A stretch of 64,000 nucleotides of DNA from Bolinopsis microptera. Lineage: Eukaryota > Ctenophora > Tentaculata > Lobata > Bolinopsidae. Positions 592-10,163 of the stretch are shown piece by piece. Position 1 is the stretch's first letter. Every line of letters begins with the position of its first letter. The stretch lies in NCBI RefSeq assembly GCF_026151205.1, contig NC_087078.1:12445118-12509117 (forward strand), in the 5' to 3' direction. Made by a program: the position numbers and the translations under genes. Below the pieces are notes generated by a model. It was not told where the DNA came from, did not search any database, and saw only the letters and a list, made by a program, of their open reading frames with translations.

Positions 592-3500
592 ATTGGAGCG
601 GACGCAGTAGGAATGTCCACTGTCCCGGAGACGGTGGTAGCGTCCTACTGTGGGATGGTTGTGTTGGGGATTAGTCTCATTACCAACATCTGTATTGTGG
701 ACATAGAGTCTACGGAAACACCAAATCATGCCGAGGTTAGTAAAATGACTTTTAAAATGTCCTGAGATAGCTTAATATTTCATATTGTGTTATGTTACAA
801 AATGTCACGTTGAGTTGTCTCAGGACATTTTAAAAGTGACAAGTGATAAATAAGTGATAATGTCACCTGACAAGTATTTGACATGTGATCTGAACATTTT
901 AAGTTGATCTGCTAAATATTGCATTGAGCTGATTTGTTGTTATATTTACTTTTATATGCTAATCTGAAGTACTCTGAAGTCATATTGCGCGTTTGACAGT
1001 GGCACGCTGCGTAAACATTCGCGTAATAGTGTGAACTGTGGGATCATAGGAAATATTTCATGGGGTAAAATTAAAGCTTGTGCATCATTTCATATTTAGC
1101 CACAACATCACAAGATTTGTCAGGCTGAAAAACATGAATCTCCACTACAAAAACTGATGTTGAGAAATAACAACTAAGAAGTTTAATAATGCATTTCTCG
1201 ATATGTTACTCTGTTTTTGTCGACGTAACAGTTGAAACTTGAAAATTGCTTTTTCTGCGTTTTCATTGGGTCCACAAACTTCGAGATCAAACAAATTCTT
1301 CACTATTTTTTCAAATTCATTAATTGTTTTATTCCTTACTGAATTAAAACCAGAGAAGCAATCATGCCTCAGCTACCCAATTTATCCTCTGAATAATGAA
1401 CATTATGTGGATTTGGTTCATGGTTGTGGAATTGGGCAATTCAAAGTGGATTCACTGGTTGTGCCATTTTTGGCCAGCTCGTCTGCTTTTTCATTACCCC
1501 ACAATGCGATGTGTGCTGCTATCCATCTGATCTCTAAGATGTTAGTGGATCCGAGTGTATTGAGAGTGTCGTAACAGTCTCTAGTAGTTCTACTCCTCGT
1601 TGAGGGTGAGGATATAGCTTGAATAGAGGAGAGACTGTCTGACCATATGATGATGTGTGTGTTGGTATAAGTTGATAGATATTTACAAGCTTCGATGATG
1701 GCAGTGAGTTCTGTTTGATAAGCGGTGCAATAATCGGGAAGCTTGAATGATCTTTCCTCTAGTATAGTGTAGTGTTGTTGTTTTCAGTGGTGATAATATA
1801 ACCAGCCCCGCTACCTGAGTCTGTGCGTGACCCGTCTGTGTAGCAGGTGATGGTTGAAAGGAGTTGTAACGCGCGAGTCATCTTTTATGGGTCACGCGTT
1901 GGCGCGTAAATTAATAAATTGAGCTTAAGTTGTAAAAATTAAGTTGTAGGTTTATAACTAGTTAGGGAATAATGCAAAATGTCTGGGAAAAAATTTGCGA
2001 CAAGCTGATTTTTACAGGAATGTGTTGTCCATAGTGTCAGGAACCACCCCAAAGAGTTTTGAATCTGGATCTGTTGAGCAAAAAAAGTTACAGCCAATTT
2101 TCTTCAGGCGCGTATGTCAGCCTGAGGACCGCACTTGAAAAACGCGTAACTATCGTAATAAAGACACCCAGGAGCACCATAGGGGGTGTAAAATGACCGC
2201 AATAGTGACATTATGTGGGGCGAATCAGTGTTTTAGGGTCGTCAGATCTTTACTTATTGAGATAATTTCATTTTTATAGGCTAACCTCTCAAAAATTTAC
2301 TAAAATTTTGAAATTTTACTTAAATTTGGAAATTTAGCAAAATTGTTGTACAATTAAAACATTGTCTAGTTATCAGTATTCAAATTCTAAAATTAACTTT
2401 CAATTGTCAATTGATCCTTATATTAGTATAGTAAATAATATACATATCACATCAAATTCTGTAAAAAAAGATCCCGAATTATTAGCATGGTGTCTTTGAT
2501 TGGTAAATATTAGGTCACTTCTGGCTATCCCATTTCCTCAGAGTTGTTTGATTCTCCTGAATCGTCCTGTCTTTCGGGTGCATTAGTGCAACTTAATCCA
2601 TGACATTGGCCACATGCAGGTAGACATTTAAAGCCATACTTCCGGCAGGAACACCTTAAGTACTTACAAGGGTTCTCAACCTCCACCGAGCAATTGCAGC
2701 AAATGAGGTTGAGCATCCCTGCCGGGGCAATCGCAGCTTTAGTCGGGATTGGCCGGTAGTATCCTTCAGAACTCATCTCCCATCCATAATGTAGTGGATT
2801 TAGACTTGCAGTGTCGAGTGTCACCCAGTTATGGTACTGAAGATATGATCTTAATATATGCTCAGTTGCAGAGGATGTAGACGGTGGTAGCCTTGATGGG
2901 TTGAGTTTTTTCTTTGCTATCATTCTACTGTAGCTGAGAAATCTGAGAGTTTCAAGTGCCTTGGTTGTATCTCCATAGATATGTTGAAACAAGGAGAGGC
3001 CAGCTTCAATTACTTCATTTGTTGAAACTCTCACAGAGAGTAAGGATGTTAAATGACCCTCCTCATGAAAAGAAATTGCCTTTTTCAATATCTTCACCTT
3101 ACCAAAGCCATGTATACTGCTGACCGTGTCACATCCTGAGAAACTGTGAATAAACAGTAATATGCGTTTTATGTTGGCATCAAGAGCATTTACTATTTTA
3201 CTGATCGAGTGTGAGCCGTTTCTGGTCGTCATCACAATTTCATTGTGATTCTCAGTAAAATGATGAATAAGGAGGCAAAGTATATCAGTATCCTCTGCTT
3301 TTACCTCAACATCTTCGTAGAAGGACAAGTTTAAAGCTTTACTAGCTACCATGGTATCAGCATCATCAGTAGCTACATGTACTTCAATTCCATGTTCTGT
3401 AAAAACGTTCGACAGAAGCTTTATAAGCTCATGCTTGTTCTTTGAGTTGCTGAACAGTTTTTTCATCGGAACTGTGCACACAGTAGTACTTTTAATAGCT

Positions 3501-6500
3501 ATATCAGAGCAGTATGCCTTGATTCTTCGCTGATGCTCATGATCTTTTGTTGATCGGGCATAGCCATCAAACACAACAATCACTTTCCGCTGTTCGGATT
3601 TCGGAACTAGCTTAAGGTATTCATTAGCTATGTCGCCGTATGTTTCAAAGCCTGTGAACGAGGTAACTTGATAGAGTAGCCATCCACCATCAATTATTAA
3701 TGGGGAGGATGGGTTGCTAAATGTCACAGTACAATCAACAACATTCTTGAGGTATTGCCCAAGGGCTGCCTTGTTTGCCTTTCTCATCATCTGCTCATTG
3801 TTAAAAAGACTCATCGGCATTGCTGTGAGCTCATATTGCAAGCTTTCCTCCAGTGTAGACTCTCGTTCAGATGCGAAGACAAGCCGATTAAAAATTGTCA
3901 ATGAGTCTATCACAATGTCTTTTTCGTTCACCCTCACTGTCTTCTTTAGAAGGGTCAAGTTTCCGACTTTGCCTTTAACTCGAAACTTATCGATAAAGCT
4001 TTTGCCATCCAGCTCTTTCTGGAGGGCAGTACCAACTGAAATGCAATCTTCTGGGTTGACATTATCCTTCTCTTTCTGTGATATGAGACCCGTTGAGTAC
4101 GATAGCATTTTAGTCTTGTCTTCAGATTCGTCGAAATCAGCTGTATCTTTAAACCAACACAACAGCTTGGTAAACACTGCAATATTTTTCTGTACAGAAG
4201 ATTTGCTAAGATCTGAGTGATTAGCACTAGAGGCTTTTGTTGTTGTTCTTTTATTGGATAAGTCTGCAATAGCTTCATCGACACTCTCGTTTATCAACGC
4301 CATTTGATTGAGGGTTGCAGTCCATAACTGATGGGCAGATTCATGAGTTCGCATTCTCCCTCCAGACAAACCCCCTGATGACTTTGCAGCCTTCATTAGT
4401 CGCTGTTCGATCGACAGGTCTGTCCACACACCAGACCACTCGTGTTCATTATATCGAACTGTGTGCAGACCTACGACCTTGAACGTTTTGACTAGTGCCC
4501 CATACTGAATCTCAAGTACGGTAATCTGCTCAAGATACAGCCGTAGAGCTTTGGAGTACTGACCTCGACCTGCTGCTGCAAAGATAGGCAACATCTTAGC
4601 CACAATTGCAAGATGTAGATCGAAGTCATGTAACCGTTCTGCTCTTATAAAATCTTTTATTAAGCAAATGAAACCATGATAAGTTGTCCAAAGAGCAGCT
4701 GTGCGGCTGTTCGACGATAACATCTCGAACTTCTTTTTTATACGCTCTGATAACTCTTGTACGACTCTGGTCTTGTGGTTTACACCGAGTTTTTCATTGC
4801 TACACTTGGCAATGTAGCTAGCCATTTCTTCAAGATCCTCCTCTGCTATTTTGTCCTCAAATAAATAACAGCAGAGAGCACAATCTATTAAAAAGTGGGC
4901 CCTCAGTGCTTTGTAATAGGATCCACCGTCCATTATGTGAGTTACATCCCCAGGGTAGACTAATCTCATAAGGTCTTCCAGTCCGGAGTCTGCCATGATA
5001 TAACCCACACACCCCAAAAAGCTTTTCAGGGTGTGGAAGCCTCCCAGCCTAACAATAACTGGCATTCCTTTCTCGAGAACTATCCGACTAGCCTTCAACC
5101 AAAGTGGTAAATCGAAGGTGATTATCATCGGTTTGTTTGAGGCTGTCTTCAAGCACTCAATAAGTGTTGTATAGACTGTTGAGTAGCTGTCTGGGGGTTG
5201 ATCGATTATCTGCAGGAACTCAATTTGTGATCTTGCCTTCACATTGGGCTTATGCAGCGATTTCATGAAACCTTTCCAATTGACGGGAGGATTGGCATGG
5301 GTAAGTTTCATGAAAATGAGCCACGCTGCATAAAAAGCGGTGTCTCCAAGGCAAGAGGTATCATAAACAAACTTTCGCTGTAGTTTATCAAATGGCCTGA
5401 ATGTGACTGTGCTTAGACCATTTTCTTTGAGGGGGTGATAGGGGTAAACCTTTATTGTTAGATCATTAAGCAAAGTTGCTTTTTCGTCAGGCTTTAATCG
5501 TTGTCTTTCAATAATAGGTTCGATAACATCCGTGGGTGCTGGTGAGATAATCTTCATTCGACCCATAGCGTGGAAGGCAGTATTGCCATATTGTGACCTT
5601 ATCGCCAAATCAATATTATCGCCAACAAATTGCTCAACCTCCTTCAGAACTGGGAAATCTTCTGTCTCGACCTGTTCTTCAAAGCTTATTTCACTATCAC
5701 GGTCACTTTCATCACCAAAATCTATACTTTTATCCATTTCATCATCAGTAGCTTCTTCTTCATTTTCCACATCTTCATCTTCATCGTCTTCACTGCATGC
5801 AATTTGAAAATCTTCCACAGCCACATATTCAGGTATAGGTTCGAGGTGGTTGGAATACTTGTTCTTTAAATACGACCATTTATATTGGAGCACTTCAGGA
5901 TAGGATGAACAGTATCCTAGTTTGTGAATCTGTTCGATTAGATGTTTTGAACCAAACTTGTGGTCCAACAAGAGAGCCACTCCAAGCTGCTTAGGCATAG
6001 GACCTGACCTTGGTCTTAATGCTGATACTATATTCTGGGCCCATACATTTACATGCTTCTTCGAGTTAAGTAAAGTACTCAAAAGGTACGTCAAAGAGTT
6101 GGGTACATCGTAATCATCTGCCATCTCCTTAACAGTGGGGTAAAGCTTCCCATTGATGGGGATTGTTTTAATGTCGTTCATCAAAACTTTTGCTGCAGCA
6201 GCCATAAGCTCCAGTTTCTGCTGTTCTAGAGACAAGTCTTCGTTCTTACAATAGTCCCTCAGAATCTGACTACACTTATCCTTAAAACAAAGTACATCTG
6301 CCCTTCTTTCTTCATTTGTAAAGTATATACTTTCTTTGTAATGATCTAGAAGTTTAATTTTAAGATACTTTCGCGTGTAACAGTCTTTGATCCCGTCATT
6401 TTCATCGACAAACGACTGAAGTTTGCAATAAAGAAACTCCAAAGTGAATACCCCGTGCTCTGCCTTTTGATCTATCCATTGGCAGAGAAGGTTGAATGTT

Positions 6501-9500
6501 TTTTCTTTGTCTCCATCTGTCGACCTACCCACCTGTGGGGAAATTATAGGAGATTATAACAAAGAATATAAAAAGTCTGAACAATGATACAATTGCTATA
6601 TTTTCTCAAAAAAGTGGATGAAATAAACGTCAGATTTAGTTTAGCGCAAAGTTCATCGTTAAGTGGGAAATCGGGAGAAATCAGGGTCAATCTACTCACC
6701 TGGACTTCGCGGGATTTAGGTGGTCTCGAAAGGTCTCTATGACAATTTTCGCAGTACATAGCTTCTTCAGAAACAAGATCGTTAAGACCCTGCAATCTTC
6801 CATAAACTTCCATTGCATAATCGTCGCCCCTCGCTAAGCACATTTCCTCAAGACTCGCTTTAACTTCGATTGTGCATATTGTTCTGTATTTATCCTTGTA
6901 TCGATCTGAAAATTAAAAATATACATTTTTGTAAAAAAAAGAAAATCAACCATCTTATATGATGACTTACGCTTGAAAGTTTCAAAATACATCATATATG
7001 TGTTGTATTCACCTCGATTATTTCGAGCGTGCTTTAGTGGTTTGAGGCAGATAATACATTTATCCTTGTATAGTAAGATCGTCTTAGTTTCTTCGGTATC
7101 GTTACTGTCATCAAATCCTCGGCCCCTTTTACTTACACGCCGAGGCCCCTTCTTCTTGTTTTCGGCTTCTGTAAAAAGCAGATGATGGTAAGAGAGCTAA
7201 AGTCTAGAAGAAATGAATGCCTGATTACTTAATGATTATCAACTAATTCTTTAAAACAATTCCTTTTTTAAAGTATTAAAAATGAAACGAGGTATTCATA
7301 AATATAAATCAAATTTAGGTTTTCAAACCATTCAAGAGTTTATGAAAATCATTAACCACGTCCATTCTACAGCTCTGGTGGACATGTAATGTTTTTTTGA
7401 TTAAGTGCTGATTGACAGTTTCTAATTTGTGAAAATCCCCCAATTTCTCTAAATGGCCTATAAGGGTCTGTGCACCATCAAGTCGCATTTTTATCAACAC
7501 CGCTGTACCATCGTCACATAAAGCACACAGCCTTTGAATCTGAAAAAGAAATTTACATATTTGTGGAATGTGGATATAGATATTTGTAGGAGTAAAAGTT
7601 TTCCGTTAATAACACTTGTTGGTATTGAATAAAACAGGATAGCTAAATAACAAGTACCTCTGATTCTCTATTATCAGTTGTGGTGCTCCCAACTTCATCG
7701 ATATGCTGCGAAGTTGTCGATGGTCCTGGCTGCTCGTCGTCTATCGAAATCTGGTGCATCCCCACACTCAATTGTCCTTCATGTCCGCTTCTTTGCCTTG
7801 CTCTTGAAGGTCCTTCAAGTTGAGTGCTATCTGAAGATGGTCGCTTAGTACGACTACTACTAGATCCATCGGCACTGAGTTGTAGCAGATCATTTACATG
7901 TCTGGCACCAACTTTGCAGGTATCTGTAACAAATTGAGCATTAAGTTTTACAAATTATTAATGCTTGAATTTCTTGAGAATTCACTGTAAAGAAAATGTC
8001 TTATTGAATTGTTTATTACAACTAAAACTCTACCTAGAATGACTCTAAGAACATTTTCACGAGTAGTTGAGTCTAATGATATGTACTTGTCTCGTACTTC
8101 GTCAAGAGTGAACGGCCGTTGCAACCAATCTGGGATAATTATATTATAGTTAAACGTAACTATTCTAATTCCTTACTTATTACGATAAAATGTATACAAT
8201 TGCAAAAACTTTATGTGCTAAAATTTGAAATCATATCCAGTCCTTACCTAGTGAGACTAAGCAAGAAAAAATGCGCTTAAAAACGTCTTTGTGGTAGATT
8301 ATTGTCGTCAACAATGCTGTCCATGTTTCAAAATAACGCCACGTATAATGGTCTTTCCCCTGAGTTGATTTTGATGAAGTGCTAAAATTAAGAATCAGCA
8401 AAATAATCTCCGTTCCAAACTTTTCAATCCTTTTCAATTAGCGTATACAATTTCACGAAACTTTGACTTAAAGCGTTTACAAAGGTTTTTAAATAAATTA
8501 CTTACAAAGCTCACTCCGTAGAGAATGATAGAAAGACACGTTTCATCAGTGGTCAATTGTCCGTAAATTTGACCAGTTTTCCATCCCTTTAGTTTAGCAA
8601 GATGAACCTTACGAGTTAGGGTATCTAAACTCATTGGGTCATCGTATGAATACAAACAAAAAGAATGATGCGAATTGAAGCTGTTAAAACTAAAGAACCA
8701 GGAGACTGACTAGAAAATGATATGCACTCGCAGTTATCGTCTTAATAATTGGACGATAACAGATTTGGTGTTCTCGAGTTTCCATTTTGAATCCATTTGA
8801 TTACGTCTTTCATCTCAAAAATACGGCTTTTAAGCTTTACAAAGAGTTTTATCAGAATTTGAAACGTGATAATTGTTGACAAATCAACAACCTTATTTAC
8901 AACTACAAAACAAGGAAGCCATATCCAGTGGCGTAACGTTGCCTGTTGGCGCCCCCCTGCCGAAAAAAGCGCCCCCCTGTTGGCGCCCCCTCCCCTTTTG
9001 GTGCCCCTCCCTAAAATTGAACAAATTAGGTGATTTTAGAGAATACGCCGGTAAAATCTCTAAAAAAGTGTGTATCTAGAGCAAAACGCGCAGTTTTGCT
9101 AGTACTTTAGTTAAGTTTTCGAAATTGTCCCACATTCAAACGACGATTTGGCGCCCCCCTAAGACGGCGCCCCCCTGCACAGCGGGGTCAGCAGGGCCTT
9201 TCGTTACGCCACTGGCCATATCCGTACTCGGCTTCCATAACATCCCCACTACAACAATTTTCGCAAAATTTCCAAATTTAAGTAAAATTTCAAAATTTTA
9301 GTAAATTTTTGAGAGGTTAGCCTATAAAAATGAAATTATCTCAATAAGTAAAGATCTGACGACCCTAAAACACTGATTCGCCCCACATAATGTCACTATT
9401 GCGGTCATTTTACACCCCCTATGGTGCTCCTGGGGGTCTTTATTACGATAGTTACGAATTTTTCAAATGCGGTCCTCAGGCTGACATACGCGCCTGAAGA

Positions 9501-9930
9501 AAATTGGCTGTAACTTTTTTTGCTCAACAGATCCAGATTCAAAACTCTTTGGGGTGGTTCCTGACACTATGGACAACACATTCCTGTAAAAATCAGCTTG
9601 TCGCAAATTTTTTCCCAGATGGTCCTGTATTGATGTTAATTGTCCCTAACTAAACCTACCAAGACCCACGCCGAGTTGGACTCGTCGAGGGGGAGTGGGT
9701 CGAATGAAAGTTCAATGGGCCATAGTATATACTTCATTACAGAACGCTATTATATACTTTAACATTTGAAATAGCTTTACATTTTTACCCATTTGTGATT
9801 TTAAAGTTGATTCAAATCATGCAATTGTCAGGTATTGGAGACAGCAAACATGCGCGCTAAAGATCTGCTGAACATAGTGAGACTGACTGTAAGATGGGGA
9901 CAACATCTCTGGAACATTGAGGACAAGTAA
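592..9930 (+). CDS. PNP: Purine nucleoside phosphorylase, last two exons (partial)
   Basis: Two exons can be read. Exon 592-735 begins after an acceptor (ccatatttcag), ends at a donor (GAG|GTTAGT), and encodes [20 protein letters not shown] followed by LGISLITN. This is the conserved C-terminal segment of trimeric PNP, with the GMSTVPE substrate-site region and the SLITN stretch whose Asn binds the purine base. Exon 9832-9930 follows TTGTCAG and encodes [14 protein letters not shown] up to a TAA; both junctions are phase 0, giving ...NHAE|VLETA. PNP cleaves purine nucleosides by phosphorolysis in the purine salvage pathway of the cytosol. Earlier exons must lie upstream of the window; I found no GPSFET-like exon in 1-590. 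The last intron is about 9.1 kb because a 7.7-kb transposon and a retroelement fragment sit in it. Confidence 0.85.
1418..1860 (-). pseudogene. RNase H domain relic of a non-LTR retrotransposon
   Basis: Read on the minus strand, this piece carries a retroelement RNase H domain: [20 protein letters not shown], then after one frame break near 1755 [32 protein letters not shown], and [20 protein letters not shown], ending at a stop at 1418-1420. The acidic residues expected of the fold are present (TDGS, TELTAI, SDS and the Asp of EKADELA), with the His of AAH. No RT or endonuclease is seen next to it, so it is a fragment of a longer pol gene. It lies in the last intron of PNP in the opposite orientation. 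The family cannot be fixed from this domain alone; I-, Jockey- or Ingi-type elements carry such domains. Confidence 0.8.
1982..2352 (+). repeat. Left terminal inverted repeat of Academ-like element
   Basis: About 370 bp that reappear as the reverse complement at 9250-9619. The outer edge reads TCTGGGAAAAAATTTGCGAC and the inner edge ends in AATTGTTGTA. By eye there are only a handful of mismatches and short indels, which argues for a young insertion. Confidence 0.9.
2525..8634 (-). CDS. Academ-like transposase with XPG/FEN nuclease domain, multi-exon
   Basis: Exons read by eye on the minus strand: 8506-8634 (first ATG at 8634), 8248-8381, 8034-8129, 7658-7923, 7329-7539 (weak donor), 6971-7168, 6700-6905 and the long last exon 2525-6532 (about 1,335 residues, uninterrupted). 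Phases agree except between the first two exons, so the N-terminus is uncertain. In the last exon a FEN/XPG-like core is visible: [12 protein letters not shown] near residue 946, VVFDGY near 987, ATDDADTM near 1055, EDTDILCL near 1079 and [14 protein letters not shown] near 1136. These match the metal-binding Asp/Glu clusters and the helix-hairpin turn of flap nucleases. An acidic stretch lies near 244-280 and a Cys cluster ([23 protein letters not shown]) near 1275-1315. Further CxxC motifs (CALC, CIIC, CENC) lie in the upstream exons. The role is inferred to be transposition of the surrounding element; the strand-transfer chemistry of this superfamily is not known to me. Confidence 0.75.
8926..9214. 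mobile_element. hAT-type MITE, 289 bp, nested in the Academ-like element
   Basis: Inverted termini CAGTGGCGTAACG, flanked by a perfect 8-bp duplication GCCATATC (8918-8925 and 9215-9222). The interior is rich in repeated GGCGCCCCCCT blocks. There is no coding capacity. A fragment of the same family's left end occurs at 62399-62435. The 8-bp duplication and CAG-start termini support hAT. Confidence 0.9.
9250..9619 (-). repeat. Right terminal inverted repeat of Academ-like element
   Basis: Reverse complement of the repeat at 1982-2352. It ends in the complement of TCTGGGAAAAAATTTGCGAC at 9619. Confidence 0.9.
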
Positions 9931-10056: not shown

Positions 10057-10163
10057 GGGGGGGAGGGGGCAACCATATTAAAGTATATCCCCGGGAAAAA
10101 ATTGGGAAAAAACCTACATTTTAATATACTTTAACATAGTTGCCCCCCCCCCCCCCCCCCCCT
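10057..10163. repeat. Small inverted-repeat element with G/C homopolymer ends
   Basis: A G-rich run followed by GGCAACCATATTAAAGTATA at the left is mirrored by TATACTTTAACATAGTTGCC and a run of 22 C at the right. It looks like a short MITE. A tandem array of a 14-16-bp AATTAGTTTACATA unit follows at 10163-10228. The rest of 9931-10690 is AT-rich and shows no gene. Confidence 0.6.

Follow-up and report, generated by a model that had tools for sequence, protein, structure and literature searches.

Within a 64,000-nucleotide window of the Bolinopsis microptera genome (G000:C7:12445118-12509117; assembly of 264.7 Mb in 232 contigs), positions 1959-9652 constitute a single, full-length DNA transposon, which most likely represents a new AcademX-type family of the Academ superfamily, judging by its nuclease domain, the length of its target-site duplication (TSD) and what is known of such elements. 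Taken as a whole, we consider it probable that this member of the nuclease-bearing AcademX lineage moves by cut-and-paste, has given rise to derivatives through interrupted gap repair and carries uneven tips. We regard its ends, 3-bp duplication, empty site, multicopy family, nuclease homology and derivative structures as demonstrated, while the steps of the mechanism are ones that we infer from them. To our knowledge, little work has been done on transposases that combine a flap-type nuclease with a presumed DDD/E core, and this genome provides one full-length, recently inserted copy together with a clean empty site and many derivatives. What makes the element unusual is that its ends generally differ by one helical turn and that snap-back derivatives are so numerous.

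Ends, empty site and tip asymmetry

The inner repeats of the element form inverted arms (1982-2342 and 9259-9619) that are 98% complementary over 361 nt, or 98.4% over 370 nt by blastn, in agreement with the long, nearly identical termini noticed in a preliminary description made from the sequence alone. Both tips start with TAGTTAGGGA, which places the boundaries of the element at 1959 and 9652. When the joined flanks were searched in the genome, one continuous match was found (C7:12436475-12436805), a local duplicate of the flanks that is 97.2% identical in an alignment of 571 nt spanning the junction and that contains AAC once but lacks the element. This is the exact empty site of the element, which had been proposed as a check, and it indicates that the insertion postdates the local duplication.

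The tips recur elsewhere in the genome, as had also been anticipated. With up to 3 mismatches, the R tip (39 nt) was found at 26 places and the L tip (29 nt) at 36, while reversed-pattern controls for both gave no match in the genome. Including the window copy, 27 copies were examined (L001-L025, and L026 and L027 as two pieces of one); their ends are common, and 24 of them are bordered by identical 3-bp duplications, read by eye from the flanks. Copies with different ends and a profile match to another superfamily, the two outcomes named beforehand as contradicting the description, did not occur.

The two tips are unequal. The pattern TAGTTAGGG-N(36-66)-ACAGGAATGTGTTGTCC occurs at 128 places in the genome, its reversed control at none, and among the 100 ends listed the spans are 82 nt (59 ends), 72 (37), 78 (2), 71 (1) and 68 (1). 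Fifty-eight of these ends make up 29 facing pairs less than 15 kb apart, the other 42 having no listed partner; 27 pairs combine 72 with 82, one 71 with 82 and one 72 with 78, i.e. a short and a long end face each other in 28 of the 29. What differs is the length of the spacer separating TAGTTAGGG from the shared repeat, 14 or 24 bp. Exactly these lengths are found in a second family of the same genome, family 2, whose protein (L028) is 61% identical to that of the window over 705 codons, although between the two families no more than 4 letters of the 14-bp spacer and 8 of the 24-bp spacer agree, as against 35 of 47 in the adjoining inner repeat. Since spacer length is conserved while spacer sequence is nearly random, the tips may be under a spacing constraint that amounts to one helical turn, and the uneven ends may offer the protein a means of telling the tips apart.

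A strict short-plus-long rule, however, found no support. Among seven re-checked short-tip places whose partner was odd or missing (L047-L053), L048 (C5:3833270-3837251) has two short-derived tips with spacers of 14 and 20 bp and a proper TAA duplication, so that either this combination of tips is compatible with movement or one of them was converted once the copy had inserted. In L047 (C12), both spacers measure 14 bp and there is no matching 3-bp duplication, L052 (C4) combines 14 with 25 bp and has the duplication ACG, and in L049, L050, L051 and L053 no second tip was recognised within the stretch examined. In L025, the spacer of the long tip measures about 51 bp and the duplication is ATA. 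Based on L047, L048, L052 and L025, the 10-bp offset is usual, not absolute.

We lean towards regarding the uneven tips as a mere inheritance from an uneven-ended ancestor, with no role in pairing: L048 carries its proper duplication, a 14/14 pair exists in L047, albeit without one, and copies with long tips of 25 and about 51 bp have been inserted. What this explanation accommodates less readily is the recurrence of exactly 14 and 24 bp over dissimilar spacers in two families, and the pairing of short with long in nearly all facing pairs. That an Academ transposase synapses a 14-bp-spacer tip with a 24-bp-spacer tip, with a one-turn preference that would resemble the 12/23 rule but be independent of it, and with the FEN-like domain processing a flap or hairpin once the ends are paired, seems doubtful, and our confidence in it, low from the start, was lowered further because of the exceptions found on re-check. 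Under the 12/23 rule of Transib and RAG, ends of two types are joined, with spacers unequal by roughly one helical turn; the likeness lies in two end types about one turn apart and in a spacer length kept better than its sequence. The comparison concerns the ends, which differ in that the spacer here separates a terminal nonamer from a long inner repeat and that pairing exceptions exist. A fixed spacer length over a randomised sequence makes an end-pairing preference directly testable.

Gene structure and derivatives

The gene lies on the minus strand, where an open reading frame (ORF) of 1,342 codons between stops provides 1,335 codons, counted from the acceptor preceding 6532 up to the stop codon, the one long uninterrupted exon already described. 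Eight exons joined by GT-AG introns in consistent phase yield 1,741 residues in a model built from genomic sequence, in which the split N-terminal region suggested earlier can be joined; its weakest splice sites are the exon 2 acceptor and the exon 5 donor. In two decayed relatives (L039 and L040), the exon 7 region is encoded next to where the main exon begins, and L039 matches exon 5 too. Upstream of the predicted ATG sits a hAT-like insert, which may affect the promoter or leader of the gene; in L017, L019 and L023 the sequence runs directly from 8926 to 9215, i.e. its empty site.

As far as our searches reach, the window copy is the only full-length one. In a protein search that scored 35 of 526 first-look candidates, window-family matches outside the window start at a residue of at least 375, or at 356 in L020. 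Residues 1-374 as query, at E up to 1, gave 16 matches, comprising the window, the L020 piece, decayed C12 pieces and weak distant relatives, and the DNA of the 5' region (7200-8900) occurs elsewhere as just six fragments. Among 26 classified copies (L026/L027, covered as two separate pieces, was left out), the window copy alone has the 5' exons; the other 25 are derivatives. Six of these are simple internal deletions and 19 are snap-back inverted duplications, with both arms from one side of the element (classes in Table 1); seven measured junctions show overlaps of 0-5 nt or a 2-nt filler. Members of the same class lie at different sites, most with duplications of their own, indicating that the derivatives moved after their formation.

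A whole-interior inversion in half of the window-family copies was considered and rejected, most of these being snap-backs, and true interior flips are confined to two derivative classes and family 2. In class 3878/4574, the interior of L001, L005 and L021 is oriented relative to the tips opposite to that of L012 and L022, and in class 3075/4733 L024 is opposite to the remaining members; in family 2, the C-terminal end is next to the short tip in two copies (L028 and L029) and next to the long one in three (L030, L031 and L032). Recombination between the inverted repeats would account for the flips, and interrupted gap repair with template switch for the snap-backs, whose recurrence would then document possible routes of donor-gap repair. 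P, Ac/Ds and Mu give rise, through abortive gap repair, to derivatives with internal deletions and short-homology junctions that are amplified in trans. The derivatives described here resemble them in all these respects, but differ in that the majority are snap-backs.

In the mechanism that we propose, the Cys modules of the eight-exon protein would bind the inverted repeats common to both ends; cutting and joining would fall to a DDD/E-type core, and the trimming of an intermediate with a flap or hairpin to the XPG/FEN-like domain. The element would be excised and inserted at 3-bp staggered cuts, and the donor gap repaired from a sister copy; interruption of this repair, frequently accompanied by a switch of template from one near-identical inverted repeat to the other, would produce internal deletions and snap-backs, which would then be mobilised in trans. 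The ends differ in that one tip has a spacer longer by 10 bp, and the interior can flip relative to them.

The element had been called apparently intact, and this stands for its frame, open over all eight predicted exons, and for its tips and TSD, but the hAT-like insert qualifies it. It is conceivable, though not what we expect, that the window copy is already defective, silenced by the insert or by an unseen splice or promoter defect, and that the derivatives were moved by a copy since lost or unassembled. Three derivatives spanning the site of the insert lack it, and assembly G000 contains gaps; the open frame and whole ends argue to the contrary, as does the position of the window copy near the derivative majority. 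We find it rather unlikely that replicative or circular intermediates, and not cut-and-paste, make the copies, with snap-backs as template-switch products of replication. Replication through long inverted repeats would likewise give snap-backs and interior flips, and excision was not observed, but the short-homology junctions look like end-joining after a gap, and most DDD/E transposons of such shape cut and paste.

Nuclease domain and relation to Academ

The predicted nuclease domain carries the acidic residues D955, D996, D1064, D1066, D1088, D1090 and D1142. Scans against Pfam, NCBIfam and PHROGs and PDB sequence searches, with the protein or a six-row alignment, returned chance-level scores only and no XPG match, and a Pfam XPG_I search of the genome hit seven places, none at a copy of the element. 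We therefore compared profiles. That of the nuclease region, built from the window, family 2 and the 28%-identical relative L043, is of small depth (Neff 1.7); the host profile comprised exons from the XPG_I matches that, from their motifs, we take to be FEN1, XPG, EXO1 and asteroid-like. Their hhalign score was 42.6 (probability 82, E 1.1e-5), against a maximum of 19.3 in 300 controls (150 column shuffles and 150 reversed-rotated). In an earlier control set (real score 42.0), 100 reversed-rotated profiles reached 18.5 and 100 column shuffles 131.4, the latter attributed to a wrong match-state setting on the templates; we rely on the rerun, for which profiles were built and the seeds changed. 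Its alignment matches IDGG with VDAS, FDGY with FDG, DADT with EAEA, EDTD with TEDMD, and GCDT..GFGK with GCDY..GIGPKK, and so contains the acidic metal-ligand series and the GCD..GxGxK segment of the FEN/XPG family. A single-sequence AlphaFold2 prediction of the region (pLDDT 35.8) was not used. These comparisons support homology of the domain to the XPG/FEN family, and the complete acidic motif set of the preliminary description is borne out, although the profile search that it had recommended succeeded only profile against profile and not with curated libraries.

A candidate DDD/E (RNase H-like) region is marked by TFDxPL (D481), LGxFH (FH507) and SGLE526, which are conserved across families. 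Of the conserved flanking Cys motifs described earlier, the C-terminal one is present, and a C-terminal Cys-rich motif is an Academ trait, just as an XPG-like domain is a feature of AcademX. The element shares both with AcademX, the nuclease by virtue of the profile-profile score. It further agrees in its TSD, for which the available part of PMC10045372 states 3 or 4 bp and which here is 3 bp in the 24 window-family copies and in all 5 family-2 copies examined (L028-L032). AcademH, by the same source, has a helicase in place of the nuclease and a TSD of 9-10 bp; it shares the superfamily name, whereas the window element has a nuclease, a 3-bp TSD and no helicase match among the scanned ORFs. 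Uneven tip spacers and snap-back derivatives set the window family apart, in that the available portions of PMC10294476, PMC10045372, PMC10799480, PMC9587614 and PMC9783078 do not mention them for Academ, though the features may be published elsewhere. An Academ-like family, as first proposed, is therefore what the XPG-like domain and the TSD point to. The nuclease, in contrast, was probably wrongly called the core: the available part of PMC9587614 lists Academ among the superfamilies encoding a DDD/E transposase, for which reason the nuclease more likely serves as a second enzyme, alongside a DDD/E core that is presumed.

Several points weigh against the Academ cut-and-paste reading. No curated profile matches the protein, no reference Academ sequence entered the comparison and the candidate DDD/E core is without fold evidence. 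Three of the 27 copies (L002, with a damaged left tip, L021 and L024) have no matching duplication, the insert upstream of the ATG detracts from intactness, the changes private to the window copy (below) give no sign of recent selection, and, with excision not observed, cut-and-paste stays an extrapolation. Even so, a separate superfamily with an independently acquired FEN-like domain, for which the missing library match and reference comparison leave room, is quite improbable in view of a domain and a TSD that both fit AcademX.

Family 2, distant relatives and flanks

Between the window protein and family 2, identities at the three codon positions are.704,.82 and.403, with dN at.28 and dS saturated, i.e. 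the protein has been under old, long purifying selection. The observed copies of family 2 measure about 3.5 kb and code just from about residue 407-470 onward; no full-length copy turned up in genome searches. One of them, L031 (G000:C1:14556500-14566300), is a tandem pair of coding units 3,627 bp apart. Singletons of the window-family derivatives (198 nonsynonymous, 81 synonymous, 15 stop) are near the neutral expectation of.70/.25/.05. The window copy, with 10 private changes (7 nonsynonymous, 3 synonymous) in 928 codons covered by at least 6 aligned rows, is young; recent purifying selection on its ORF, considered as a possibility, is unsupported by these counts.

L043 (G000:C6:4305000-4313000), equalled in score by C6:4427774, has open nuclease and Cys regions but no long inverted repeats within 8 kb, and is possibly an immobile or domesticated gene. 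Around L043-L046, no long inverted arms were found save 108 nt in L045, and no relatives were confirmed in viral contigs or genome contigs.

Table 1. Features of the element in window coordinates, and classes of its derivatives
Feature	Position or class	Strand	Remarks
Left target-site duplication AAC	1956..1958		flank; single AAC in empty site
Short (L) tip	1959..1981	+	TAGTTAGGG + 14-bp spacer
Left inner inverted repeat	1982..2350	+	361 nt ungapped, 370 nt gapped
Conserved inner box, left	2014..2030	+	ACAGGAATGTGTTGTCC
Exon 8	2525..6532	-	ORF; 1,335 codons + stop
C-terminal Cys-rich motif	2588..2701	-	ORF residues 1285-1322
XPG/FEN-like nuclease domain	3059..3703	-	ORF residues 951-1165; predicted activity
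Candidate DDD/E (RNase H-like) region	4274..5146	-	ORF residues about 470-760; putative, from conservation only
Exon 7 (YCENCH Cys module)	6700..6905	-	model; similarity in decayed relatives L039, L040
Exon 6 (CIIC)	6971..7168	-	in-phase GT-AG model
Exon 5 (CALC...HQSC)	7329..7539	-	donor picked for phase, weak; similarity in L039
Exon 4	7658..7923	-	in-phase GT-AG model
Exon 3	8034..8129	-	in-phase GT-AG model
Exon 2	8248..8359	-	acceptor picked for phase, weak
Exon 1, predicted ATG	8506..8634	-	in-phase GT-AG model
Nested hAT-like insert, 289 bp	8926..9214	n/a	CAGTGGCGTAACG ends, 8-bp duplication GCCATATC
Right inner inverted repeat	9250..9619	-	361 nt ungapped, 370 nt gapped
Conserved inner box, right	9571..9587	-	
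Long (R) tip	9620..9652	-	TAGTTAGGG + 24-bp spacer
Right target-site duplication AAC	9653..9655		flank; single AAC in empty site
Deletion class	5431/9215		L002, L004, L015
Deletion class	5311/8809		L017, L019, L023
Snap-back class	3075/4733		L006, L007, L008, L010, L016, L018, L024, L025 (L025 by 4733 alone)
Snap-back class	2813/4995		L009, L011, L014
Snap-back class	3878/4574		L001, L005, L012, L021, L022
Snap-back class	2597/5489		L020
Snap-back class	2778/3881		L013
Snap-back with interrupted junction			L003

In the left flank, a minus-strand ORF at 1418-1783 may, by eye, resemble the RNase H end of a LINE, and the sequence around 1765-1855 has matches at many genomic sites. The right flank contains a 32-nt inverted repeat (10057-10155, 91%) with poly-G/poly-C ends, at which the duplicate of the flanks differs.

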